Program-made: the position numbers and the translations under genes
Shown: positions 4,878-24,052 of the stretch, one piece after another
Numbering within the stretch: position 1 is the stretch's first letter
Layout of the letters: each line of letters opens with the position of its first letter
DNA from: Deltaproteobacteria bacterium
Lineage (GTDB): Bacteria > Desulfobacterota > Desulfarculia > Adiutricales > Adiutricaceae
Length of the DNA: 51,293 nt
Direction of reading: 5' to 3'
Assembly (NCBI GenBank): GCA_031264185.1
Contig: JAISEL010000061.1
Coordinates: 1-51,293, forward strand
The notes under the pieces: generated by a model
What the model saw: the letters and a program-made list of their open reading frames with translations, nothing else
Told to the model about the DNA's origin: nothing
Database searches by the model: none

Positions 4878-5512
4878 GAAAAAATAAAATTTAGGATTTT
4901 GTTTTTAACTAAAAAAGCCAAAATAGGGTAAATAGAATCTTTTTAATCAAGACAATTGTAGGCCGGTCATCAAAGCCATGCCTTAAGACCAGCCTTATAG
5001 AAGTTATATATTTTTTTGGGCTGAGAATCAACCGGAGACGAAAAGTCTGACAGATACTGAAGTTTTTTTTAAGGCGAAAATAATATCCGGCCGGACTTGG
5101 CAGCCAAATGCGGAAAGTCAATACTTTATCTGAATTGTAGCTGATTTATAAGAAAAGGAAAAGGCCAATAAGGTTTACTTGGCCCAGAGACTGAGTGAGT
5201 CGGTCAAATACAATCAATTTAAATTTCTACATAATTATACATTAAGCTTTAGGAGCTTAACCCGACTTTAACAGTCCGCAATTCTATGTTGAAAACAGCA
5301 CATACATCAAATTACTTATTAATATTATAATGAAATATGAAATAGATTTCAAAACCATATAAATATGAAATTTCAATTCTATGGTGCCGAAAGAAATTTT
5401 CAAATTATGGAATAAAAAATACAGCTGACAAAAGACCGAATTTAATTAATGGAAAAGGAATTCAAATGTTCGTATAACCTACCTGGTGATTTTAATATTA
5501 TTAAGAAGATGA
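4878..5512. other. Gene-free gap upstream of the HIT gene
   Basis: AT-rich; no convincing gene. A 70-codon open frame on the minus strand at 4909-5121 has no recognisable motif and no clear ribosome-binding site. Confidence 0.5.
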
Positions 5513-5516
5513 GGTC

Positions 5517-5786
5517 AGTAATCGTTTCTTCCATTACACTGAACGCAGGATTGACGGTCATCTCTATATTTCTGTTTTGGCGTGCCAATGTGTCAATTGG
5601 ATAAGAAACAAGCTTAAAGCTAACAGCATTAACGACTGTGCTGCAATTGGCCGAAAAATGTCGACATTTAGATTTTGCAGTCTTAAGTTTAATGACAAAA
5701 TTGGTAATGGCGGTCTGCGTTTACTTTTTACAGTAAGCCTATAACAGAAAAAGATATTTGACGCTCTTGGCTTAAACTGTTATTAA
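5517..5786 (+). pseudogene. C-terminal remnant of an IS1634/IS4-type transposase
   Basis: Reading from 5520 gives NRFFHYTERRIDGHLYIS, then VLACQCVNWIRNKLKA, a good match to the conserved C-terminal block of IS1634-family (DDE_Tnp_1) transposases, where the Glu of the YxxRxxIDGHL motif is the last catalytic acid. The frame goes on through MSTFRF, hits one internal TAA near 5740, and resumes with QKKIFDALGLN before a final stop. About four fifths of the gene is missing upstream. Identification is from motif memory, not a database search. Confidence 0.6.
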
Positions 5787-6162
5787 GGTGAGTGGTTTGA
5801 CGTTGCTATACGTGAGGAACGTGGTTCATAATAGTTTAATGTCATGAATTCAAATTTCAAAAAAATTTGTCCCACTTTCATTTACCATAAAAATAAATTA
5901 TCATTGCATATTATTTATAGTGCCGAATGTTAAAGTTGGGTTAAATAAAACTTATGCCGGAAAAAGTACCTGCCCAGAGGCAAAGAGTGTACCAGTCAGC
6001 CCAAAGACCTGCTTTCTGCTGGATCAATCACAGTTTGAGCTATTACCACGGCACGAAGCTCTGAGAAAATTTTTGCAGTTTCAAGATGGCCACTATTTAT
6101 GATTTTGGTTATGCTGAAGAGTACTATTCTAAGTTGCTTTTAAAATTGAAATTAACCCAAGG

Positions 6163-6371
6163 CTAATATGTCAAGCTCCGGAGAGCTGCTCTGTTTGCTT
6201 TTATTTGCGCCAGAACAACGTTGGCTTGCTTCATCGCAACATCTGAATTCGGGAAGAATCCATTAGCAAAATAATCTCTTCTCAATATATTCCATACTCT
6301 TTCAACTGGGTTAAGTTCCGGAGAATAAGGAGGAAGAACGATTAATGATACATTCGAAGGAATGACCGGAC
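6163..6371 (-). pseudogene. 3' fragment of IS630-type transposase (family copy 1)
   Basis: The minus strand reads VSLIVLPPYSPELNPVERVW then NILRRDYFANGFFPNSD and ends SLTY-stop at 6163-6165. PPYSPELNPVE is the third-catalytic-Glu block of IS630 transposases. Almost the same DNA, down to the terminal TTCTAAGTTGCTTTTAAAATTG, recurs at 40876-41100, so these are two copies of one IS. The rest of the gene is missing: a different IS630-type element begins at 6374, right at the break. Confidence 0.75.
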
Positions 6372-6373
6372 TA

Positions 6374-7583
6374 TTACTCCGGCGGATAATTTTGATAAAT
6401 TATAAACACCGTACCATTTAAGGATATTGTGGAATTAAAATTTTTTATCCTTACCACAAACAGAGAATAGATATTGCATTATCTTTATTGCATAATATAT
6501 GTATGAAAACAATTGAACCTGCCAACATAACAAAAACGTATCCGCAGATGATCAGAGACCGGGTGATTAGCCTCCACCGTCGGAATTTCCCGGCGCTCAT
6601 CATCGCTTTCATGCTACTTGTAAGAGTTCATGCTGTCTGCCGCTGGGTTGAGCGTATGAACTCGCCGGAGAGGAAGGGCTGGCGGCCAAAAAACGCGGCA
6701 GACCTGTCGGGACAGGAAGAAAGCTCTCTCCTGGACAGGAAGAAGACATTAAAAAAGGTCTTTTGAACAGCGAACCAACTAAATTTGGACTAAACGATTC
6801 CGGTTGGTCAGGAAAGGCAGTTTCAGAGCTCATTAAGCAGCGTTTTAATATAGATGTTGCTGCAAGGACTGTCGGGGATTATTTGAAACGATGGGATTTT
6901 ACACCGCAGCGCTCTGAAAAAAAGGTATATGAACAAGACCCTGAAAAGGTGAAGCAATGGTTTGAGTATTTTGAGGATATTAAAAGGCGCGTAATGTAAA
7001 ACGGTTATCAGATATATTTTGCTGACGAATCTGGCATACGCACAGAAGACCATAAGACCAGGCCATACGCGCCGAAAGGGCAAACGCCTGCAATTAAAAG
7101 CAGCGGAAAGAGATTAAAATTAAATATTATTTCTGCAATTTCTCCTAGTGGTTTGATGAAATATATGACATATTTAGAGTCTATGACAACGAAATTGTTC
7201 ATCAAATTCATGAACAATATTATTAGGAATTCAACAAAAAAAGTTTTTCTTGTCGTTGACAACCTGAAAGTTCATCACGGAAAGCTTGTTCAAGCATGGT
7301 TAAAAGAGCGCTCTAATAAAATCGAGCTTTTTTTTATTCCGCCGTATTCTCCGGAATTAAATCCTGATAAGTATTTAAACAATATTATAAAAAATAAAAT
7401 GCAGAATCTGCCGTAAGCTCATTCTCAGGATGAGCTGAATTCAAATGTACATGGAATTCTTAAACAATTGCAAAACGATCATTCACAAGTTAAAAAAATT
7501 TTTGACCATGATAAAATTAAATACGCGAAAGTCGAGGCGAAACCAAAGAATAAATAGATTCTTATAATTATCCACCGGGGTAA
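6374..7583 (+). mobile_element. IS630/Tc1-mariner-type element with TIRs and TA duplication
   Basis: The left end reads TTACTCCGGCGGATAATT at 6374 and the right end, reverse-complemented from 7583, reads TTACCCCGGTGGATAATTAT. Both ends are flanked by TA (6372-6373 and 7584-7585), the target duplication expected of IS630/Tc1/mariner. Length is 1210 bp. It carries a single plus-strand transposase that is dead. It inserted into, or right next to, the older IS630-type fragment at 6163-6371. Its ends match those of the MITE at 41101-41278. Confidence 0.85.
6503..7557 (+). pseudogene. Decayed IS630-type transposase inside the 6374-7583 element
   Basis: The gene reads from ATG 6503 (MKTIEPANITKTYPQMIRDR, helix-turn-helix part), shifts frame near 6650, and continues in frame 1 with LAGEEGLAAKKRGRPVGTGR and the linker. 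It then meets a TAA at 6997-6999, followed by FADESGIRTED (first Asp) and FLVVDNLKVHHGK (second Asp). The third motif reads PPYSPELNPDKYLNN, where the usual catalytic Glu is Lys. A second TAA follows at 7414-7416, and the natural stop is TAG 7555-7557. One frameshift, two nonsense codons and a lost catalytic residue mean no active enzyme. Confidence 0.85.
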
Positions 7584-7686
7584 TAATTACTGTGCCTTTA
7601 AAAATGACTTAGAATTAGATGATCTGACCGCAGGGTCGTCTCTGTTATCAGACGCTCTTAAGGTCAAATTATGAGGCCGTAATTTT

Positions 7687-10632
7687 TTAAAATTTTTTAC
7701 TGACTGCATCCCCAGGTATTACCTTAAAATGTGGGCAGTCTTCATGCTCCGGACATACCCAGATCTCACTTTTTCCTTTGGGCTCCCTAACATAAACAGT
7801 CGCTCTGTTTTTTTCGCAGATCGGCGGATTCAAAAACGGCCAGCGTTCATCTAAGCGGCGCGGCCTGTGATGATTGGGACAGCCGGGATTTAAGCAGCCT
7901 AATCTCAAAGGCTGACGGTGATCGAAATCCCGCAGCTGGGCTTTATTTAAAAGTAAATAAGGCCAGCCGCACTGAGGACAGTTTCGGAAGCCTTTGGGCC
8001 CCAGTTTTTCGGCAATTAAAGGAGCCTGTATTATCTGAGATAAGCATGAGCCGGCCTTTGGTGTATCCACAGTCCAAAGTCCGGTCCAATCCGGGCGTCC
8101 GGCCTTGGAAGGACCGGGTTCTCCCCAGGTAAAATATTTCTGGTCAATTAAGCCCGTCAGATCCGAAAACCCCTGAGCTAAGATCACCTGTGCCCCGTAA
8201 AGTTTAAGATCCCTTAAGACCGTACCGCAGTATTCCTTATGGGCCTCCGAGGGCACGGCGGCCAGGACGGTTATTTTGACCTGCCGGTTTAAAGCGGACT
8301 GGAAGTGGACGGATAAAGGAGTCCACCAACCGGGCTCAAAGACCGGCAGACAGAAGAAAGCCTCTCGTTGGGCTTTGTCTAAAGCTTCCCACATGGTCAA
8401 AGGTCCCTGAGGCGGCCACTTAAAATTTGGCCGGACGGAGGTTCCGGCCGACCACAGTCTGGTTAAAGGAGTCAGAGGCGGCAGAGCTTTTATCTGCTTA
8501 TCGTGGCCTATAAAAACCAAGGCCCCCTCCGTCAGGCGGACGGCTTCCAGTAAAGCCTGTCGGCCGCTGCCCGGCCAGGACCAGGGATGTTTTAAGCCTT
8601 GAGCCGTGTCGGCTATAACCAGAGCGGCCGGAGGAAAGTCGGCCAGTTCCGAAATATCCCCGGCCGAAAGGCCGGTGACTTGCGGGGCCAGATCCCCTAT
8701 AAAAGCCCTGAGCAGGGCCCCTTGAGCCGGAGAGGGAGCTAAGATATAGACGGGAGCGTTAGGAGACAACTTTTTGGCGGTTAAAGCCAGATTGACCGAG
8801 GCCAGAGCCGAAACCGGATTGACCGGACCGTTTTCACCCGCCGCCTGCCAGACCGGACCCCATGGACCCGGCCAGGACCAGATGTTTAAGGCTGATTTAA
8901 TTCCCAGTTCCGCAAGCCATGGAAACTTGTCCGGTTTGGGTGGCCGGGTCAAAGCCGTCTCAGGTAAAGGTGAAAGGAGTCTTAAGGGACTTTGGGTCCG
9001 GGTTTCCGGGGTCGGGGTCAGATAGGATGACCAGGCTTTTGGTTTTTTCAGAGCCTCTTCCGGTTTTTGAGGCTTTTTGTCCTGGATCTCATTTTCTCTA
9101 ACTTCGGGTCTTTTAATGTCAATTGGACTTTCCTTTAAGCTTGGGTTTTCTTCAGTCTCATTTCCCCAAAACCAGGTTGAAAAGTCACCGGCTATTATTA
9201 AGCGCTTATAGGGCCAGGCTGCCAAAAGAGCTAAGGCTTTTCGGGAATTTACGTTGTATCCGGACGGAGAGAGAACAAGAAGATTGTCGACCTGACCGAA
9301 ATCGGCTAAATTTTCAGAAGTGGCCCAACCGGGAAAAGCTATGACTGCGGGCCTGCCTCTTAAAAGCTTCCGGCTTTCGGTGACTGGGGAAAAAGACAGA
9401 ACCTTATCGCCTATTTCGGTGTTTATTTTCTGACATTCAGCGGCAATGGCTCTTAATTCTTCTTTGAGTTTCAAAGCCGAGGGCAGAGTTTTAACCATCT
9501 CTTTTAAGGCGGTCAATTTCTCGGTCAGCTTTTTGGCTTCCGCCAGGAGGGATGTCTTTTCCCGCCTGACTCGGGTCATCTCTGTTTCTGCGGCTTCTAA
9601 ATGAACGGCGGCCAATTTTTTTTCAGAGTCAGTTTTTTTTCTTTTGAAAAAGGACCAGAAGGATTTTTCTTGTCTGGATTTTGTCCAATCCTCCCGGGCA
9701 GCGGACAGTTCGCCGGAATGAAACGCCCAGACGGTCTCCCGGTAGGCCACCTCCCGGTTGAGCCGTTCCAGATCTTCTTCAATGGTCCTTAAGTATTCCC
9801 ATTTTTGCAACTTAATATTAATGTTTTTCTCAATGGATCTCTGAAAGTCAAGTTTGGAGCGGAGGGAGGCCAGCTCTTCGGCTTTTTGGGAGCTTTTGAG
9901 AGCCAATAAGTGACTTAATTCCGCCTCGGCCAAGGTTTCGTTTAAAGCCGGACCTAAAACCAGGATATCTCGGGGCTGGTTTTTTAACGCTCCGGCCGCC
10001 ATGGCTAAGATATCTTCCCTGTCCGACAGAACCCAAAGTGATTCTTCCGGCGGCAAAGAGGCGGTTAAGCCTAAAATAGTCTGGGCCAGACGATCCAGAT
10101 TATCCCAGACAAAACTGACTCCCAGACGGGGCGGGGAATCGGGCAGTGCCTCCCAGGCCGGAAACAGACGGTTGAAGTCAGAATAAAAGTCAGCAGGTTT
10201 GAAACATAGATCATTGACCGAACTTAGCCAGCCGGAAGCCGGGTCAGAAAATTCCGAAAGTCCAGGCACTCCAGGACTCTCTGAAAGAGGAAGCCAGGGG
10301 TCCTCATTGGGTTCCCATTTGGCTCGTCCGTCGGTTTCAGCTAAAGGCCAGCTCTCTGGGGTTAAAAATATGAGTTCCGGTCCGGGTGGGGAGATGAGGT
10401 GGGCTTCCAGAGTTTTAGATCCCCAGGAAAGACAGCCCAGGTAACCGGGAGTCAAAGGTCCGCCAGTAAAGGAAAAAGCGTAGATATGCCGACCAGGATA
10501 GTGAAGTTTTCGGCCGTGGGTTAAAATAAGCTCTTTTGTAAAAGGAGGCGAGGGAAGATAGTCACCCAAAACCTTCCGGACGGGTGGGCTGTAGAGGGTC
10601 TGCTCGGCTTTCAGGCTGGTTGGCCAGGTCAT
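7687..10632 (-). CDS. Helicase/PLD-like protein lacking catalytic motifs (pseudoenzyme)
   Basis: The uninterrupted 981-aa product has the layout of SF1 helicase-PLD nuclease proteins (AAA_11/AAA_12 plus PLDc_2 plus zinc ribbon). Residues 1-165 form an N-terminal domain. At 172-186, SFVWDNLDRLAQTI stands where the family has a W-GPPGTGKT Walker A. A long coiled coil covers about 240-410. At 447-488, VDNLLVLSPSGYN replaces the DEAS Walker B, yet RLIIAGDFSTWF keeps the motif III shape. A second RecA-like part spans about 590-760. A PLD-like region at about 790-870 has FSDLTGLID where HxKxxxxD is expected. The tail carries CPQCG and CLNPGC zinc-ribbon pairs plus CPEHEDC. Start ATG follows AGGAAG. 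It is the last gene of the unit with two envelope paralogues upstream (33-bp gap). No ATPase or nuclease activity is expected; DNA, RNA or protein binding is a guess. Confidence 0.7.
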   Translation of the reverse strand: MTWPTSLKAEQTLYSPPVRKVLGDYLPSPPFTKELILTHGRKLHYPGRHIYAFSFTGGPLTPGYLGCLSWGSKTLEAHLISPPGPELIFLTPESWPLAETDGRAKWEPNEDPWLPLSESPGVPGLSEFSDPASGWLSSVNDLCFKPADFYSDFNRLFPAWEALPDSPPRLGVSFVWDNLDRLAQTILGLTASLPPEESLWVLSDREDILAMAAGALKNQPRDILVLGPALNETLAEAELSHLLALKSSQKAEELASLRSKLDFQRSIEKNINIKLQKWEYLRTIEEDLERLNREVAYRETVWAFHSGELSAAREDWTKSRQEKSFWSFFKRKKTDSEKKLAAVHLEAAETEMTRVRREKTSLLAEAKKLTEKLTALKEMVKTLPSALKLKEELRAIAAECQKINTEIGDKVLSFSPVTESRKLLRGRPAVIAFPGWATSENLADFGQVDNLLVLSPSGYNVNSRKALALLAAWPYKRLIIAGDFSTWFWGNETEENPSLKESPIDIKRPEVRENEIQDKKPQKPEEALKKPKAWSSYLTPTPETRTQSPLRLLSPLPETALTRPPKPDKFPWLAELGIKSALNIWSWPGPWGPVWQAAGENGPVNPVSALASVNLALTAKKLSPNAPVYILAPSPAQGALLRAFIGDLAPQVTGLSAGDISELADFPPAALVIADTAQGLKHPWSWPGSGRQALLEAVRLTEGALVFIGHDKQIKALPPLTPLTRLWSAGTSVRPNFKWPPQGPLTMWEALDKAQREAFFCLPVFEPGWWTPLSVHFQSALNRQVKITVLAAVPSEAHKEYCGTVLRDLKLYGAQVILAQGFSDLTGLIDQKYFTWGEPGPSKAGRPDWTGLWTVDTPKAGSCLSQIIQAPLIAEKLGPKGFRNCPQCGWPYLLLNKAQLRDFDHRQPLRLGCLNPGCPNHHRPRRLDERWPFLNPPICEKNRATVYVREPKGKSEIWVCPEHEDCPHFKVIPGDAVSKKF

Positions 10633-10665: not shown

Positions 10666-12264
10666 TTAGGGATCAGCCACCTGAAAAAGTACGGGCAGGC
10701 GGCCGTTGACAGTGAGGGCAAGATTCAGATCTTTAAGTATAACATAGCTGTAATATTTAGCAATCTCTTCTGTGTTATCGCCGCTCAGCTGAGGCAGGCC
10801 CTTCTGGCCTTTGGTCAAGCTGGAAAAAGGAAAATTGGCGGGCGGGTTCCAGGTTAGGGAGATGGCTATCGGTGACTGTAAAAAAAGCTCGGTTTCGGCT
10901 TTCAGGGAATTTAAGTTAAGAAAGGCTCCCGTATTGGCCAGATGATTCCAGTATGGTTCTGTGTATCTGCTTAGTGCCTCCTGAGGAGATACATTAGTCT
11001 CCTGAGCCAGAGCGAAGGACCAGTTAGTTAAAAACCCCTGGTCGGTGTACTTAATGGCCCCATGGCCAATACCGGCAGTAGCTAAAGTGAGAAGACTAGG
11101 ATTGTGGGTAATCAGAGTCCGGAAGAAACTTTTGTCGGCCGATAAAGATACGGTCAAAAGTCCTTGATCCCTGACAGTTAGGTTTAATAAAGATGAACTT
11201 TTGGACTTTGAGGCGGCTGGCTCCTGATAATCTGGAGCTAAAGTAAAAGACAGTTCGCCTTTGATCTGGGGGCCTAAAACCTGGGCTAAAGCTTTTAAGG
11301 CCGGATCGGCTTCCCGAGCCGGAACCAGATTTAAAGCCTGGGGATAGACGGTCAGGTCTTTGAGGTTTAAAACCAGATTATCGGGTTGATCGCCTGATTG
11401 GTCAGGCTCTTTATTTTCATATGTCCTGTTTTCCCAGAACCCTTGCGACAAAAATAGGGCTTCTTTTTGGTTGACCTGGTAAGCCAGACCGGCCAATTCT
11501 ATACTTTGGACTGTGTTAACCAGATTCGGAGTGGAGTGGGGCTCAAGTATCCCCGAGATGAACTGTAAAACATCCATGTTGGACATGGTCAGTCCGCCAA
11601 GTTCCAAATGACGGTCGTCTGAGAAAATCTCCAAACCGCTTATGACCAGCCCGCCCAGAACAGTGTCTTCATAATTAAAAATAGACAGGCTGTCGGCGGA
11701 CAGATATCTCTGAGTATGCCGGCTGTCCAGGATGAGATCGGTAATTTTTAAGTATTCCGCCCCCAGACCCGCCCCTATAGTCGGTTCTGTCTCCGGCTGG
11801 CTTTGTTTTAAAGACAGGCTCAGGGTTTTTAAGCCAATTGTTTTAAAAGGGTCAAAACCGCCAGGGCTTTTAATTTCCCGGACTTCAATTTTACTGTCCA
11901 CCGCCGCTTCCAGCCAGGAATCAAGGCCGACCATAGCTTTAAGAAACTTCCGGCCTGAAAGCTCGGTTATGTTAATTTCGGCCACCTCAATCCACTGTTC
12001 AGGGGTTTGGCCCACTAAGCATAAATCTTTAACCGAAAGATTCTGGTAAAAAAGACCCAGCCTTATTTCTCCGGCCCGGACAGAACCGAAATAGCTCTCC
12101 TGGCCTAAATCCCGGTTAAGCCAGAAGTGTAAAAAAAGTCTCGGTCCGGCTAATAAAAAGGCCAGGAGCAAAAATAAGCCGACAGCCAGATAAAAAGATT
12201 TGGTCCTCAAAATACCGGTATACGGTGGGGTGCTTAAGTTATCCTGATTAGTAGTCGTCATCAT
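10666..12264 (-). CDS. Single-TM periplasmic protein, envelope paralogue B
   Basis: Product of about 532 aa of unknown function. A short cytoplasmic tail is followed by one membrane helix (FYLAVGLFLLLAFLLAGPRL) and a long region of beta-rich, hydrophobic/polar alternation, like AsmA- or YdgA/DUF945-type envelope proteins. After the TM segment comes the same pattern as in its two relatives in this window: a short conserved block, then LSVKDLCL, then EINITEL. The frame is open to 12303, but the ATG pair at 12259-12264 is preferred because it overlaps the end of the upstream gene (stop at 12248) in an ATGATGACG arrangement, typical of translational coupling. Role in the envelope is inferred from architecture only. 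Confidence 0.7.
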   Translation of the reverse strand: MMTTTNQDNLSTPPYTGILRTKSFYLAVGLFLLLAFLLAGPRLFLHFWLNRDLGQESYFGSVRAGEIRLGLFYQNLSVKDLCLVGQTPEQWIEVAEINITELSGRKFLKAMVGLDSWLEAAVDSKIEVREIKSPGGFDPFKTIGLKTLSLSLKQSQPETEPTIGAGLGAEYLKITDLILDSRHTQRYLSADSLSIFNYEDTVLGGLVISGLEIFSDDRHLELGGLTMSNMDVLQFISGILEPHSTPNLVNTVQSIELAGLAYQVNQKEALFLSQGFWENRTYENKEPDQSGDQPDNLVLNLKDLTVYPQALNLVPAREADPALKALAQVLGPQIKGELSFTLAPDYQEPAASKSKSSSLLNLTVRDQGLLTVSLSADKSFFRTLITHNPSLLTLATAGIGHGAIKYTDQGFLTNWSFALAQETNVSPQEALSRYTEPYWNHLANTGAFLNLNSLKAETELFLQSPIAISLTWNPPANFPFSSLTKGQKGLPQLSGDNTEEIAKYYSYVILKDLNLALTVNGRLPVLFQVADP

Positions 12265-14176
12265 CTTCAGCCGGCTGGGAATTCTGCAGGTCTTCCGATT
12301 CAAAGCTGAACGGGAACTCAGTGGTGTCCCAGCTGAGTTTGATCGGTTCCTGACTGTTTGTGCCTAAGTAGATGTTTAAAAGATTTAAAAGGACCGCATT
12401 GTTACCGGGCTGATAGACGGTCAGGGCAAATTCTCCGGTGAAGTTGCCCAGAGGTTCTAAACCCAGATTTATCCGACCGGGATTTTCGAGAAATTTTTGG
12501 CCCGCCTCAATGACCTCGTCGCGGTTTTCCAAGTTGGAGAAGCGATCAATAATATAGCTCCAGAAACCCATTGCGGCCAACTGGCGGATGTCTTCAGCCG
12601 ATCGATCAGCTTTTTGGGCCACCAGATTAATAGACTTATTGGTAAACGAGTTGTCAACAAATGACAGAGACATTTTTCTTAAAATAATGTCCATCGCCTC
12701 AGGAATCTGCGTAATGGCCTCAAAGTCTGATAAAGGCACCTCAGCTAATTGATCGACTGTACTCTGGCTCAGTTTTTCCAGTTCCAAAGAGAAGTCCAGA
12801 CTGAAAAGATCCTTGACTTCCGTTTTAGCGGTCTGGATTTTGTAGACCTCCGTCTTTCGGTCGTAGCTGGACTTAGAGTTATAGGTGATTTGGAAATCAG
12901 ACTGACCTAACTGTTGGCCAAAGGTATAGGTCTTCAATAAGATATCATAGGGACTTTCCAGAACTTCGGTCGGCAGGTTGACAAAAGCCTGGATTTCTGA
13001 AGACTTAGTTAAAGGAATTTGGTAGGCTTTAAACGGTCCGGTCATAGAGACCTTATTAAGGCCTAAAGACAGAACGTCATTATAGGCGACTTTAAAATTA
13101 GCCACTGACAGTGAATCTAGATCATAAGGAGCGGAGAAAAGACTGGCCGCCGATTTGTAGGCATTGTAGAACTGCCCGAAATTTTCGGCCGTAAAAGGCG
13201 ATTCTCCTTGTAAAATGCTCCGGTAAAAAAGATAAAATTGGGGGGTCAGTTTATCCATCAGCCTGGCAGTATCAAGATTATCAAAGGCAAAAAGCTCACA
13301 GGTTAAATCTACCTTATTATTTTTATCATCGGCGGGGAAGGTCACAGTAAAGGTAATGTTTTCCAAAGAGTAGTGGCCGATCTTCCCACGGCCGTCGGAA
13401 GCAGTTTCCAGGGATTGGCCGATTCTAAGCAAAACGTCGGTTTGTCCGGAATTACTGGTCAGGCCATAATTATTGATCTTCATTTCCTTAAAAGCCAGAG
13501 ACCTGTACAACTGAACCAGCTGAAAAGGACCGGCCAGGGACTGTAATTCAGGAGACAGGCGAGGTTCGGTTAAGGAAAACGACTCGGCCGAAAGGACAAT
13601 AGTCTGAACTTCCTCTTTGGTGGCCTTGATGATTAAGGAAGAATCGGTCAGGCGGCCGACGGAAAAAGTTAAGCTTTTTAGAAAGCCCAACGGTCCGGTC
13701 GAGTTTTGCTCATCAGCGGCTAGAAGCTTGACATCAGATAAATCGGCTTGACCTACGGCTAAGTCCACAGCCAGGGCTGAACCTTCCAGACGGGATTTAA
13801 TGTCCGACAAAGTCAGCTGCCCGGCTATGTCCGTCTCCGGTTGGGCTTTCCAGTCAGTCAGTCCCATTAACTTATCCAAGCCGGCCTTCATCAGGCCGTT
13901 TTTAATATTTATTTCCCTGACCGTCAGAAGCAGAGGTTTTTCCAGCCCGGTGACTTCAGGAATAAACGTAACCTGGATATCGGAAACAGTCAGAGTCTTT
14001 TTTAATAGGCTGAAATCATGGGACTGGGCCTGCCATTTCGTGTCCGGGCCGACGATTTTATTCATGGCAGTTTCAAAAGTCAGGTAGGCCTCACCAGCGA
14101 GCTTGCTTTTAATCAGCTGAAAAGCGATCACCGCAGCTACCAAAATAACCAGGCCTATTAAAATGTACTTCTTCAT
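12248..14176 (-). CDS. Single-TM periplasmic protein, envelope paralogue A
   Basis: 642-aa product of unknown function and first gene of the three-gene minus-strand unit. It has an N-terminal signal-anchor (YILIGLVILVAAVIAFQLI), then TFETAMNKIVGPDTKW and LTVSDIQVTF, which align by eye with GFETFMDLTFGPDQW and MTVNGLWVS of the paralogue at 21136-23151. The remainder is a long periplasmic region of repeated beta-type segments, ending in the acidic tail AEDDDDY. This layout recalls AsmA-like or DUF945 proteins, but I do not recognise a defined domain. It is translationally coupled to the next gene. The shared design of three paralogues suggests a lineage-specific envelope family. Confidence 0.72.
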   Translation of the reverse strand: MKKYILIGLVILVAAVIAFQLIKSKLAGEAYLTFETAMNKIVGPDTKWQAQSHDFSLLKKTLTVSDIQVTFIPEVTGLEKPLLLTVREINIKNGLMKAGLDKLMGLTDWKAQPETDIAGQLTLSDIKSRLEGSALAVDLAVGQADLSDVKLLAADEQNSTGPLGFLKSLTFSVGRLTDSSLIIKATKEEVQTIVLSAESFSLTEPRLSPELQSLAGPFQLVQLYRSLAFKEMKINNYGLTSNSGQTDVLLRIGQSLETASDGRGKIGHYSLENITFTVTFPADDKNNKVDLTCELFAFDNLDTARLMDKLTPQFYLFYRSILQGESPFTAENFGQFYNAYKSAASLFSAPYDLDSLSVANFKVAYNDVLSLGLNKVSMTGPFKAYQIPLTKSSEIQAFVNLPTEVLESPYDILLKTYTFGQQLGQSDFQITYNSKSSYDRKTEVYKIQTAKTEVKDLFSLDFSLELEKLSQSTVDQLAEVPLSDFEAITQIPEAMDIILRKMSLSFVDNSFTNKSINLVAQKADRSAEDIRQLAAMGFWSYIIDRFSNLENRDEVIEAGQKFLENPGRINLGLEPLGNFTGEFALTVYQPGNNAVLLNLLNIYLGTNSQEPIKLSWDTTEFPFSFESEDLQNSQPAEDDDDY

Positions 14177-19059: not shown

Positions 19060-19800
19060 TTAAAATGGCGTTTTAATCCAAAAAGTGACTAGAATGCCAA
19101 TAAGAGCGACTAAAATACTGATTGTAATAGGGTTTTTCCATGTATTTGATGCTTTTATTTCAGCTTTTATTTCAGCTTTAAATGTTTCAAAATTTAAACT
19201 AAAACTATTTTCTAGCTTGTCCAAATTTAAACTGAAATTATTTTCTAGTTTGTCCAATTTAGAATTGAATTCACTTTTGAGCCCCATTTCAAGACGAGAT
19301 ATTTCTCCCTTCAGAGCAGAGACATCTTCCTTCAGAGCAGAGACATCTTCCTTCAGAGCAGAGACATCCCCCTTCAGAGCAGAGACATCCCCCTTCAGAG
19401 CAGAGACATCCCCCTTCAGAGCAGAGACATCCCCCTTCAGAGCAGAGACATCCCCCTTCAGAGCAGAGACATCTCCCTTCAGAGCAGAGACATCCCCCTT
19501 CAGAGCAGAGACATCCCCCTTCAGAGCAGAGACATCCCCCTTCAGAGCAGAGACATCTGCCTTCAGAGCAGAGACATCTTTGCTAAACCCAGATATTTCA
19601 CCCTTCACGTTAGAAATTTCGGTTGTAATTACAGACAATTTTTTATTAATTTCGACAATTTCCAATTCGCGGGTTATATCGCGGCGGGTAAAATCCTTCC
19701 ATGTTTCCAGATCGGAACTAAAAACAGAATTAGGTATTGGGCCAGAAGATGAGCCGACCCTCAATTGGTCTGATTGTTGGGAATTAGTTTCGGCGGACAT
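19060..19800 (-). CDS. Tail-anchored coiled-coil protein with tandem heptad repeat
   Basis: The 246-aa product opens with a polar, Ser-rich head (1-40), has a helical lead-in with ISNVKGEISGFSK, then 13 consecutive copies of the heptad DVSALK(G/A/E), a textbook coiled-coil heptad with Val and Leu core positions. The helix goes on through LKSEFNSKLDKLENNFSLN and ends in a single C-terminal membrane helix (ITISILVALIGILVTFWI) and a four-residue tail. This predicts a long rigid rod fixed to the membrane by its C-terminus. The ATG at 19798-19800 follows AGAAGGA with good spacing. Resemblance to the DUF1640 or LPXTG-less coiled-coil classes is only structural. The opposite strand is open too because the unit is 21 bases long; the minus strand is preferred for its start site, coiled coil and TM segment. 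Confidence 0.75.
   Translation of the reverse strand: MSAETNSQQSDQLRVGSSSGPIPNSVFSSDLETWKDFTRRDITRELEIVEINKKLSVITTEISNVKGEISGFSKDVSALKADVSALKGDVSALKGDVSALKGDVSALKGDVSALKGDVSALKGDVSALKGDVSALKGDVSALKGDVSALKEDVSALKEDVSALKGEISRLEMGLKSEFNSKLDKLENNFSLNLDKLENSFSLNFETFKAEIKAEIKASNTWKNPITISILVALIGILVTFWIKTPF
19310..19582. repeat. Tandem repeat, 13 units of 21 bp
   Basis: Thirteen consecutive units of the form TTCAGAGCAGAGACATCCCCC (plus strand) with no length change. Middle units are identical or nearly so; the outer units have C-to-T or C-to-G changes (CATCTTCC, CATCTCCC, CATCTGCC). Each unit encodes one heptad of the coiled coil on the minus strand. Homogeneous centre and diverged edges are typical of repeats that expand and contract by slippage or unequal recombination. 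Confidence 0.95.
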
Positions 19801-20860
19801 GTTTTTTCCTTCTCATACAAAAGTTACTTATATTTTAGCCAAATGTTGAGAAATATTCAAGGGGATTAATGGATTAATGGACAATTTTTGTTGACGGAAG
19901 GTCGCAAGACGATAAAATGGGTCAGAAAATTGAGTTGTTAAAGCGAGCAAAAAACAATTTTTTTTGCCTATCATTGCTTCATCCGATATTTTTTTAGAAG
20001 AGGGTAAAATTTTCATTGTGGGTTTTATCTCCCCTGTTTCACCTAGGCGTACCTCCTACAGTTTAACAGATCTCGTGAGGGGAAACCCATTTTAATTTTT
20101 AAAAGGTAGGGAGAAGGGGGGGAATTTTAATTTGAGCTGCGGCAAGCTCATTGTAACTTGGATAGTTTATCGTCTCAATTTTGGACAAAATGAACCGTCT
20201 ATTTTAAGTCAATTTTGTCCGTTCAAAACAGGACTGATTTCTCCAACAGCGAGACAGAGGCCAACGACCAAATTCCAGAAAGGCGACGAAAGAATGTTCA
20301 AACTGGGAGTCTTCCTCTCCATGAAGCCGGACAGCTGATTGTGGATTTAGAGACAAATTGGCCGGAGGGCAGGCTTTGACCAGTGCATGGAAAATGTCTT
20401 ACTACTGGTCCCTTGCATCCAAAAATATAACATAACATGATGTAATCTGGTAAAATTCGGGGAAAACGACGGAAAATAGCGGAGACTTTTTTCAAAAATA
20501 AAAGTCAAAGCAGCGAAAAACGTTATTCTTTATGGATTTTCGAAGGAATGGCTATGCCACTTTTTGATTATTCAGGTCAGGTTTGAGAAATTGGACACGA
20601 TTACATACTTTACAGTTGAGTGCGAGTCATCTCAAGGAGTTATACAAAAGCGTGAACTCTTCTGTGCTAACTCTGTTCAGAAAGAAATAACGAAGCCGTT
20701 GGCATCTGATGTTCGTTCTGATAATGGAAGCTCAAATATGGAACAGTTCATAGACTCCTTCAAACTTAGCTCCATTCCTCGCGGAGTAAAAAACAGCCTG
20801 AAGAAAAAAATCGCCAGGACTAACTGCATGGTTACTGTAATGTTGTTAAACAGTATGATT
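19801..20860. other. Gap upstream of the coiled-coil gene
   Basis: Low-complexity sequence with no convincing gene. The stretch 20564-21127 is open on the plus strand but lacks a clear ribosome-binding site and any known motif. Confidence 0.45.
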
Positions 20861-21015: not shown

Positions 21016-21135
21016 GTCGGTTTTCTTTTGCGGTTTCGAGGCGGTCTGGGATAAATCCACAGGGTTCAAAGGGTCGGGGAGGTTGAATTTTCGGCCCTTT
21101 TGGTCAATAATAGTTACTACTTTTTAAGGTCTCAA

Positions 21136-23151
21136 ATGTCTTCAATCCCAAAAACTCTGGTGAGCGTCATAAAAAAAATTCAGGCTATGGGTCCCGAAGC
21201 GGCCTTTATTTTTAAAAAATTCCGCTATCCGCTTTACGGCTTATTGGGTGTATTCCTGATAATGGCAATTTTTTATGTCCTGACCATCCTTGATCCCAAT
21301 ACTCTGGTCAACTCCAAACAGGGTTTTGAGACCTTCATGGACTTGACCTTCGGGCCGGACCAATGGCGGGCCGACAGTTATAGCTACAACTACCGGGATC
21401 GGACCATGACCGTTAACGGTCTTTGGGTCTCCAATATAGCGGAAGATACCCCCGCCTCAGGGCAGTTGCTAGTCTTTGTCAATAAGCTGACCGTAAGTCA
21501 CCTGACATGGGCTAAAGATTTTAAAGCTCTCCTGACAGGTCAGACCCTGTCTGATTCCTTAAATCCTTTGGCCGCCAAAGTGGTGGCTACGGAAGTCAGC
21601 TTTCTCAGAATCTTGGCTAATCTGCGGATTCATGGCCGTCTGGCCAGAATAGATCTCCAAAATTTACGTTTCATCCCCGGAAATATGAAACCCTTTGATT
21701 CACCGGCGGCCGGTGGGCGGTTTGATTTTCTCCGGCGTTTGCAACCTGATCGGCTGGAGCTGGAAAAAGTTCGCCTGTCAGGTACGGAGGTCGGTTGGCC
21801 GTTTCATTTTACCCTAAGCCTTCCTTCCTGGAATCTGACTGAACCGAGACTAACATCCGGAGGTTTGGTGACTTCAGAAGGCAGCGTAATGGGCGGCCTG
21901 GGGTTTGCGGTCAACCTGCATGGCTATAATTTAAGCGGCCGTATTGATGAATTGGCCCACGACGGCCTGGTCGGTCCAGGTTACTTTGACCGACTGGCAG
22001 TCCGGAATCTGAACTTCTGGCTGGAGCCCAAAGCTGGCCCAACCAATCTTGACCGAATAGAAAAGAAAAACTTAGATCCGGCAGTTTGGGAATTGGCTCT
22101 GGCCGACGGGGTAGCCCAGTATTTAGATTTAAGGTCTGTATTCAGCCGTTTTTTTTCCGGCTTCTCACGGAGAGGCGGGTTTAGTCAAGCGGCTGACCTT
22201 TTGAATCTATTGACTGTCCGCACCTTGTCGCTGGGCGGGGCTACTGTCTTTGATTCCAGCTTCAGCGATTTGTCGGTGACCTACGGCGGCTTGACCGGCC
22301 GGATTGGCCGGGGGGAGTTGGCCGTGACCGCCGGACGCGACCCCTACGCTCTTTCGGTTCATTTAGTCGACGGCTGGTATCGGCTGCATGATCCCCAGGA
22401 TCCGGCCAAGCCTTTCTGGTCAGACATTTTTGGGCAGGCCGACGATCTAAATTTTTTGACAGGCCGGTTCAATTTTTCCGGCCAAGCCGGCTATGATCCC
22501 CAAAAGCAGTTATACCTTGCCGACGGCTCTTTGGAGATGACTAACCTTTTCGGGTTGTCAGTCGGTTTAGAACTGGGGGGGGTGACCGGACCGTTGATCG
22601 AAACACTGGAACGGGTAACACTTAAAGATCTTTTAATTGATAAGACTGTGACTGGAGGCTTAAACGATATTTCTCTTCAATTGTTTGAGGCTCAGTTAAG
22701 AGATCAGGGATTGGTTGAAGGGTTTATAAATTATTACGGTCGAAAGACCGAGGTCAAAAGCCCGGACCATGGTCTGGTGCATAGACCGGAAAGCGGTTTG
22801 GACCAAACGAGGGACCGGATAATTTTCGGTTTAGCCTTAGCTTTGACTTTGAAACTGGAAAAATATCTCGTAAACTCTCAGACCATAACCAATCAGGTCG
22901 CCGTCTTTATCCGCCAGCCCGGCATTCTGACTTTGAAGGCTGTGCCTTCTCCGGCTATCAGCTATCGTGGTTATCAGTCGGCTGCAAGTTTGGGAGATTT
23001 ACTGGAGTCGGCTAATCTGAGCTTAAGTTTGGACTCAGAGGGTCTGACGAATTTTCAGTGGAAAAACCCCTGGCCAATAAGCGACGGACCGTATGAGGAG
23101 CTGGTCGACTGGCACGAGGGTCCGGATAAATTGACTGAAAAAGAAGATTAA
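21136..23151 (+). CDS. Single-TM periplasmic protein, envelope paralogue C
   Basis: 671-aa product of unknown function related to the genes at 10666-12264 and 12248-14176. A cytoplasmic head of about 45 residues precedes one membrane helix (LYGLLGVFLIMAIFYVLTI). Then come GFETFMDLTFGPDQW and MTVNGLWVS, which match the same position in paralogue A, and a long periplasmic part of repeated beta segments with many LxLxxL patterns. ATG 21136 is preferred over the upstream TTG because AAGG lies 7-8 bases before it. It is followed after 85 bp by a spermidine-synthase-like gene on the same strand. An AsmA/YdgA-like envelope role is inferred from shape only. Confidence 0.75.
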   Translation: MSSIPKTLVSVIKKIQAMGPEAAFIFKKFRYPLYGLLGVFLIMAIFYVLTILDPNTLVNSKQGFETFMDLTFGPDQWRADSYSYNYRDRTMTVNGLWVSNIAEDTPASGQLLVFVNKLTVSHLTWAKDFKALLTGQTLSDSLNPLAAKVVATEVSFLRILANLRIHGRLARIDLQNLRFIPGNMKPFDSPAAGGRFDFLRRLQPDRLELEKVRLSGTEVGWPFHFTLSLPSWNLTEPRLTSGGLVTSEGSVMGGLGFAVNLHGYNLSGRIDELAHDGLVGPGYFDRLAVRNLNFWLEPKAGPTNLDRIEKKNLDPAVWELALADGVAQYLDLRSVFSRFFSGFSRRGGFSQAADLLNLLTVRTLSLGGATVFDSSFSDLSVTYGGLTGRIGRGELAVTAGRDPYALSVHLVDGWYRLHDPQDPAKPFWSDIFGQADDLNFLTGRFNFSGQAGYDPQKQLYLADGSLEMTNLFGLSVGLELGGVTGPLIETLERVTLKDLLIDKTVTGGLNDISLQLFEAQLRDQGLVEGFINYYGRKTEVKSPDHGLVHRPESGLDQTRDRIIFGLALALTLKLEKYLVNSQTITNQVAVFIRQPGILTLKAVPSPAISYRGYQSAASLGDLLESANLSLSLDSEGLTNFQWKNPWPISDGPYEELVDWHEGPDKLTEKED

Positions 23152-23236
23152 CAAAGTGCTTTGCCCTCATCTTGTCAGCTGCCTAAAAGACCTGTTTGGA
23201 TGTCTGGTAAATCCGTTATATAAGGGACTGTCTTTT

Positions 23237-24052
23237 ATGCTTGAGGAAAAGAAACCGGAAATTATTTTTGAAGCAGATACGCCATTCAACCACATTACCA
23301 TTTCCGAGCTGGATGGGATAAGGACGATGTTTTTGGGCACGGACGCTCAGGAAGCGGAAACCGCCATCTCGGTGATAAATCCCGAGGCGCCTGTTTTCGA
23401 GTATCCGGGCCTGGTGTTTCTGTCTCTGGCCCTGCGACCCAAAGCCCGGAAAATACTCATGCTGGGTTTGGGGGGAGGTTTTGTGCCGCGTCTTTGCCAG
23501 AAGTATCTGCCGGAGCATAAGCTGACAGTGGTGGAAATAGATCCTTTGATTGCCGATTTGGCTGATATTTATTTTGGCTTTACTCCGGGCGGCAATGTCA
23601 GACTGGAGATTGCCGACGGTCTGGAGTTTTTGTCTCAGCAGTCGGCCAGGTCTTATGATTTAATCTGGTTGGACGCTTTTGACGGGAAATACATCCCGGC
23701 CCATCTGGCCACCGGCCAATTTTTGGAAATCACCAGGCAGGTTTTAAAAGAAGAAGGGCTACTGGTTCAGAACCTCCATCAGACCAGATTATTTTTCTAT
23801 CACCGGCAACTGGTTTTAACCGGCCAGATCTTTGATGAGCCTGGTTTGATTTTCACCGGCAGCCGCTGCGCCAATGCCATTGTCATCACCCCCAACGGAC
23901 CGAAACCCATCCCCCGCTTGCCTAGGGAACTGGCTAAGGCAGTCCGGTCTTTTGGCCGAAAAATCGGACCTTACGATCTTTTAGATGAGATCCATAAATT
24001 GGCCCCTTTTCCCAATATATCCCAGCCGACCATAGAATGGACTTTGGGCTGA
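23237..24052 (+). CDS. Spermidine synthase-like SAM-fold protein
   Basis: Class I Rossmann protein of the spermidine synthase/SpeE superfamily, about 271 aa. The AdoMet/decarboxy-AdoMet binding site is clear: ILMLGLGGGFVPRL (glycine loop), VVEIDP (acidic residue at the end of strand 2), ADGLEFL, and DLIWLDAFDGKYIP. The last block corresponds to the position of the catalytic Asp of aminopropyltransferases. The N-terminal beta domain is short, as in the many SpeE-like proteins whose true substrate is unknown, so polyamine synthesis should not be assumed. ATG 23237 has AAGGGA upstream; the frame is open back to a TTG at 23156. It probably shares a transcript with envelope paralogue C. Confidence 0.75.
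   Translation: MLEEKKPEIIFEADTPFNHITISELDGIRTMFLGTDAQEAETAISVINPEAPVFEYPGLVFLSLALRPKARKILMLGLGGGFVPRLCQKYLPEHKLTVVEIDPLIADLADIYFGFTPGGNVRLEIADGLEFLSQQSARSYDLIWLDAFDGKYIPAHLATGQFLEITRQVLKEEGLLVQNLHQTRLFFYHRQLVLTGQIFDEPGLIFTGSRCANAIVITPNGPKPIPRLPRELAKAVRSFGRKIGPYDLLDEIHKLAPFPNISQPTIEWTLG

Follow-up and report, generated by a model that had tools for sequence, protein, structure and literature searches.

Genes at the locus

The analysed window, i.e. the whole stretch of 51,293 nucleotides, contains the gene for a catalytically dead SF1 helicase-PLD-zinc-ribbon protein as an intact minus-strand frame (7687-10632; 981 aa), exactly at the position and with the unbroken frame claimed in a preceding reading of the DNA made without database searches (the sequence-only reading). 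This focal gene starts with an ATG preceded by an AGGA-type ribosome-binding site, 33 nt past the end of the previous gene, and is present as a single copy in the genome. The previous gene (10666-12264, minus strand; likely ATG at 12264, in an ORF reaching to 12303) codes for the envelope protein c5 with one N-terminal TM segment and overlaps the end of the gene before it (12248-14176, minus strand), which codes for the envelope protein c0, composed of an N-terminal TM segment and a periplasmic beta-rich domain with a JlpA/Lpt-like groove, as judged from AF2 and Foldseek. The short gaps and overlaps between the operon genes fit co-transcription. Both c0 and c5 carry one N-terminal hydrophobic segment or lipobox, and the C-terminal part of the c5 genes of relatives matches the c0 profile. 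The c0 protein is predicted to be beta-rich and periplasmic (AF2 pLDDT 88.8), with Foldseek matches to JlpA (probability 1.00) and to LptC/LptA (probability 0.99-1.00, but weak E values), while a Pfam search with 26 c0 members gave no family match and did not place them with AsmA or DUF945.

A paralogue of c0 (21100-23151, plus strand) is directly followed by c4 (23156-24052, plus strand), a spermidine-synthase-like methyltransferase-fold protein with 45% identity to c4 of Deltaproteobacteria bacterium Smac51 (tblastn, E 4e-70); a member of the c4 family matches Spermine_synth. These two genes (21100-24052) represent the 3' half of the ancestral operon, which is detached in the source genus. 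A second c0-like envelope gene of the genome (L149:4830-6791, G000:C9) follows a branched-chain amino-acid ABC transporter operon.

Some further features of the window are recorded here. The 2.8 kb from a HIT-domain gene to the focal gene (4878-7686) contain no ORFs of at least 100 aa, and the genes of the relatives have no match there. A 21-bp tandem repeat of 13 copies with 97% identity (19307-19578) encodes, on the minus strand, a coiled-coil heptad with the sequence GDVSALK; it lies in an ORF at 19060-19800 (minus), and the opposite strand is also open (19085-19849, plus; 254 aa). The 266-aa ORF at 18-818 resembles a 400-aa ORF of the same genome (L149:8891-10093) and looks like a truncated transposase.

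Ancestry and predicted fold of the protein

Used alone, the focal protein had no match in Pfam, PHROGs and NCBIfam besides weak coiled-coil noise, and none in the PDB sequences or in a single-sequence scan of the genome contigs. PDB profile matches were due to coiled coils or chance, and a PADLOC match to LmuB (E 0.0025) was discarded because it covers the coiled coil only. Intact relatives were reached only with a profile of the family (31 members), which retrieved two helicase-PLD proteins from other families elsewhere in the phylum (L064:40-3246 and L065:6829-9984). These retain GPPGTGKT, DEIS, TVHTFQG, VTRAK, and HGKxxxxD, match the AAA_11, AAA_12, and PLDc_2 profiles, and show similarity to the Mokosh proteins MkoA (E about 1e-59) and MkoC (E 2e-39). 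One of them directly adjoins a gene for a GmrSD_N-type protein (L065:10077-11573), possibly forming a defence pair. Searches of plasmids and phages with an intact relative yielded partial helicase matches only (at best about 28-30% identity, with 58-64% of the query covered), and viral contigs scanned with the family profile gave no match.

The HHalign comparison of the focal family with the intact homologues is collinear over 767 columns (probability 100%, E 3.8e-56), with a best E value of 0.014 in column-shuffled controls, and each domain aligns at the matching place and in order. The RecA1-like domain (9163-10155, aa 160-490; probability 98.6, E 7e-16) shows a UPF1/IGHMBP2 fold and harbors an inserted coiled coil (9358-9918, aa 239-425, from AF2 secondary structure), which aligns to that of the intact homologues (probability 82). 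It is followed by the RecA2-like domain with degenerate motifs V and VI (8413-8937, aa 566-740; probability 96.4, E 1.4e-9), the PLD-like domain (8029-8412, aa 741-868; probability 98.8, E 5e-17), and a C-terminal double zinc ribbon in common with L064 and L065 (7702-8028, aa 869-977; probability 99.4, E 6e-22), all on the minus strand. The focal protein is thus a descendant of a helicase-PLD fusion, homologous over all domains; for aa 1-160, homology to the active relatives was not established by HHalign (E 0.033).

The AF2 model, calculated with 31 sequences (mean pLDDT 81, pTM 0.76), predicts a helicase part of the UPF1-like SF1 type that is interrupted by a coiled-coil insertion and followed by a PLD domain of the Nuc type and a zinc ribbon. 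Foldseek and VIA-align assign residues of about 40-744 to the UPF1-like SF1B helicases (Foldseek 8ftm, E 1.4e-13; VIA 4b3g, Z 15.6, rmsd 7.6 over 450 residues), with two RecA domains, an inserted stalk, and UPF1-like topology in the model, and residues 739-895 to Nuc-type PLD proteins (1byr, Z 11.6, rmsd 3.9, 130 residues; Foldseek 4ggk and 6ehi). The order of helicase, coiled coil, PLD domain, and zinc ribbon proposed in the sequence-only reading are therefore borne out by HHalign collinearity, AF2, and Foldseek/VIA; the absence of RecA and PLD folds, named there as a refuting outcome, was not seen, both being predicted with good confidence.

Loss of the catalytic residues

Residues were counted in an alignment of 33 family orthologues with the intact homologues, in which the HKD site was scored in 32 members. 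At the degenerate Walker A site (10072-10122, aa 171-187, GVSFVWDNLDRLAQTIL), SFVWDNLDRLAQTI of the focal protein pairs with TFIWGPPGTGKT of the intact homologues, and the Lys is present in 0/33. The degenerate Walker B site (9250-9291, aa 448-461, VDNLLVLSPSGYN) takes the place of FNAVIVDEIS, with Asp-Glu in none of the 33 sequences (alignment gap at the site), and the degenerate HKD motif (8143-8172, aa 821-830) pairs GFSDLTGLID with GVHGKDVIID, both His and Lys being lost from all 32 sequences scored and Asp830 being kept in all of them. The motif VI Arg is absent from 32 sequences and present in one (1/33). The motif III remnant (9160-9204, RLIIAGDFSTWFWG) retains its Asp (Asp483) in 33/33. 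All aligned members have kept the zinc Cys ligands, and the zinc His position is occupied by His in 26/30. The replacements had been named correctly from the single sequence and hold across the 33 orthologues, and the retention of the motif-III-like segment and zinc Cys was likewise recognized, but the wording that every catalytic motif is replaced goes too far in view of the two conserved Asp residues. A hidden alternative P-loop was rejected, since no P-loop pattern was found anywhere in the 33 orthologue proteins. Of the residues expected of an active SF1 helicase (Walker A Lys/Thr, Walker B Asp-Glu, motif VI Arg), the family thus lacks the Walker A Lys, the Walker B Asp-Glu, and, in all but one member, the motif VI Arg, and it also lacks the complete HxKxxxxD motif of an active PLD nuclease.

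In a tree with the intact homologues, the dead proteins are monophyletic (support 100/100) and sit on a long branch. The lost helicase motifs are general to SF1 helicases, and the dead state is therefore derived; the catalytic loss is thus probably older than the last common ancestor of the family. A new active site might in principle have been built on the old fold from invariant residues such as Asp483, Trp769, Arg783, Arg807, and Asp830, and the invariance of Asp483, Asp830, and several Trp and Arg residues is compatible with such a neofunctionalised enzyme. However, many of the invariant residues are of structural types (Gly, Pro, Ala, Leu), and no known catalytic constellation is recognisable among them, which makes this explanation improbable.

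Distribution, synteny, and selection

Among 60 relatives searched, the focal gene was found in 36 genomes, all from one family and among them every other genome of the genus. The family comprises 37 genomes, and in the one remaining a profile search of higher sensitivity revealed a broken copy, so the locus is present in 37/37, and it was not found by profile search in four genomes from two sister families of the order. The named relatives comprise Deltaproteobacteria MAGs, several of them labelled Candidatus Adiutrix, and Deltaproteobacteria bacterium Smac51, whose genome is complete; the MAGs are presumably of termite-gut origin. Papers treat Adiutrix as a termite-gut lineage. An assembly artefact was rejected, as the complete 4.48 Mb Smac51 genome carries the same gene and operon. 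Some members of the family have, sporadically, separate genes that combine helicase and PLD-like regions and whose motor motifs are intact (L118:1859-5419 from Smac51, L115:236-3322, and L116:918-4040), the L118 helicase belonging to SF1 and those of L115 and L116 being SF2-like, with an apparently altered PLD motif in L115; being separate proteins with intact motor motifs, they were rejected as orthologues of the focal gene.

The block order c5 - c0 - (c0) - focal - (c0) - c4 is found family-wide, in several genomes after pyrK and pyrD. By our count, the upstream neighbour is c0 or c5 in all 29 loci whose contig reaches upstream, and an envelope or c4 gene lies downstream outside the genus g1; the operon neighbours comprise envelope genes, c4, pyrD/pyrK, or a BtuF-like gene. 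The association with two envelope paralogues, which the sequence-only reading had suggested searching for in related genomes, is therefore a conserved trait of the family. In some family members (L022, L033, L034), the focal protein reaches 1469-1678 aa, with large insertions rich in Ala, Pro, and Ser separating the RecA1-like from the RecA2-like domain.

At about 30-50% amino-acid identity among family members, 35 of the 37 copies are free of in-frame stops, some of them being truncated at contig ends and the one in G018 terminating early. The exceptions come from two small genomes: the copy of G026 (1.5 Mb) is broken in place by two in-frame stops, and in G023 (2.1 Mb) the focal gene is reduced to pieces in three frames, flanked by a frameshifted c0 and a decayed c4, i.e. 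the three genes are broken together. The dN/dS value (NG86) of the closest pair is 0.15 overall and 0.011 for the dead PLD-like domain, the lowest within the protein; other close pairs show 0.14-0.53, these values being approximate because synonymous divergence is high and near saturation. A slowly dying relic of a defence gene that has stayed intact by chance would agree with the broken copies in G026 and G023 and with the many dead genes of the window described in the sequence-only reading, but is contradicted by intact frames at such low identity, by dN/dS far below 1, and by the shared and ancient motif loss; for most members, the intact frames and dN/dS values already refute this scarcely credible explanation. 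Fold, coiled coil, PLD platform, and zinc ribbons are kept under purifying selection, and with intact frames, low dN/dS, and lost active sites the protein represents a pseudoenzyme under selection. The RecA and PLD folds, the dN/dS values well below the value near 1 that, with frameshifted orthologues, the sequence-only reading had named as refuting, the restriction of broken copies to two genomes, and the conserved operon together give good support to the earlier proposal of selection for a non-catalytic role; the scaffold mentioned there as an example would go further than this.

Possible role in the envelope operon

On balance, we lean towards the reading that the focal protein is an exapted pseudoenzyme which would serve as a cytoplasmic non-catalytic scaffold or adaptor working with the operon products. 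Neither a signal peptide nor a clear TM segment was found in the protein, and the lack of a convincing TM segment and the reduced-type zinc sites suggest a cytoplasmic location. Its ancestor was probably an SF1 helicase of the COG1112/UPF1 type that carried a PLD nuclease and a double zinc ribbon in the same chain, an architecture now seen in Mokosh-like defence proteins. The gene would have become fixed beside envelope genes before the last common ancestor of the family and been inherited vertically since, and the ATP-binding and nuclease residues would have been lost afterwards, with retention of fold, coiled coil, PLD platform, and zinc ribbons. Putative physical partners are the inner-membrane-anchored periplasmic beta-groove proteins c0 and c5 and the spermidine-synthase-like c4, and the conservation pattern suggests the coiled coil and the PLD/zinc-ribbon end as binding surfaces.

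Several points speak against a scaffold role: c0 and c5 are mostly periplasmic, unlike the focal protein with its predicted cytoplasmic location; sharing an operon with envelope genes is no proof of a shared process; and nucleic acid would be an equally plausible ligand of the zinc ribbon, which is positively charged as in the active relatives. The known dead SF1 helicases, RecC and AddB, still serve DNA repair complexes. The main rival is a nucleic-acid-binding sensor or regulator, in which the dead helicase fold scans or holds RNA or DNA in a RecC/AddB-like manner and perhaps regulates its own envelope operon or senses foreign nucleic acid. Besides the precedent of inactivated SF1 domains in RecC and AddB (PMC4824097), the strongly basic zinc ribbon (+6.7 per 100 aa, as in the intact relatives) and the position of the zinc ligands and the PLD platform as the most conserved parts agree with this proposal. 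It is nevertheless rather unlikely, since the first RecA segment has turned acidic (-4.8 per 100 aa vs 0 to +2.8 in the intact relatives), motifs V and VI are gone, and the operon contains no helicase partner gene, unlike AddA/RecB.

The scaffold reading may be extended to an antiphage-type helicase-nuclease that was domesticated, with both active sites erased, as a core part of an envelope (possibly lipid-handling) machine across the family and physically links the cytoplasm to the membrane-anchored beta-groove proteins, which we regard as a tentative proposal, conceivable rather than probable. To our knowledge, pseudoenzymes derived from motor-nuclease fusions are rare. If true, a family-wide helicase-PLD protein with both engines erased, kept under selection and locked into an envelope operon would indicate that domestication can turn proteins of the defence type into structural parts, and the focal locus provides a defined case for testing this in symbionts of the termite gut and related bacteria.

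Comparison with known systems

The intact L064 and L065 proteins share the domain order and the C-terminal double zinc ribbon with the focal protein, but have kept the active motifs and are encoded by isolated genes outside of envelope operons, one of them beside the GmrSD_N-type gene. The Mokosh system (MkoA/MkoC) likewise combines helicase and PLD in one system, and the intact relatives of the focal protein match both components, whereas the focal protein itself matches neither, has lost both active sites, and is encoded family-wide and in synteny rather than as a sporadic defence gene. The fold of residues of about 40-744 is that of the UPF1-like SF1B helicases (IGHMBP2, UPF1, Sen1, Aquarius), but the bacterial focal protein has about 10-12% identity to them, lacks the ATP motifs, and carries an appended PLD domain and zinc ribbon. 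RecC and AddB are SF1 folds stripped of their motifs which were co-opted as non-motor parts and became Chi scanners (PMC4824097). However, they exhibit a UvrD-like fold and act in a complex with an active helicase-nuclease, for which no gene is present in the operon at the focal loci, whereas the focal protein is UPF1-like, carries a fused nuclease that is dead as well, and has envelope proteins as neighbours. An inactivated SF1 helicase fold is already known, and the unusual features here are the additional inactivation of the fused nuclease and the location in an envelope operon.
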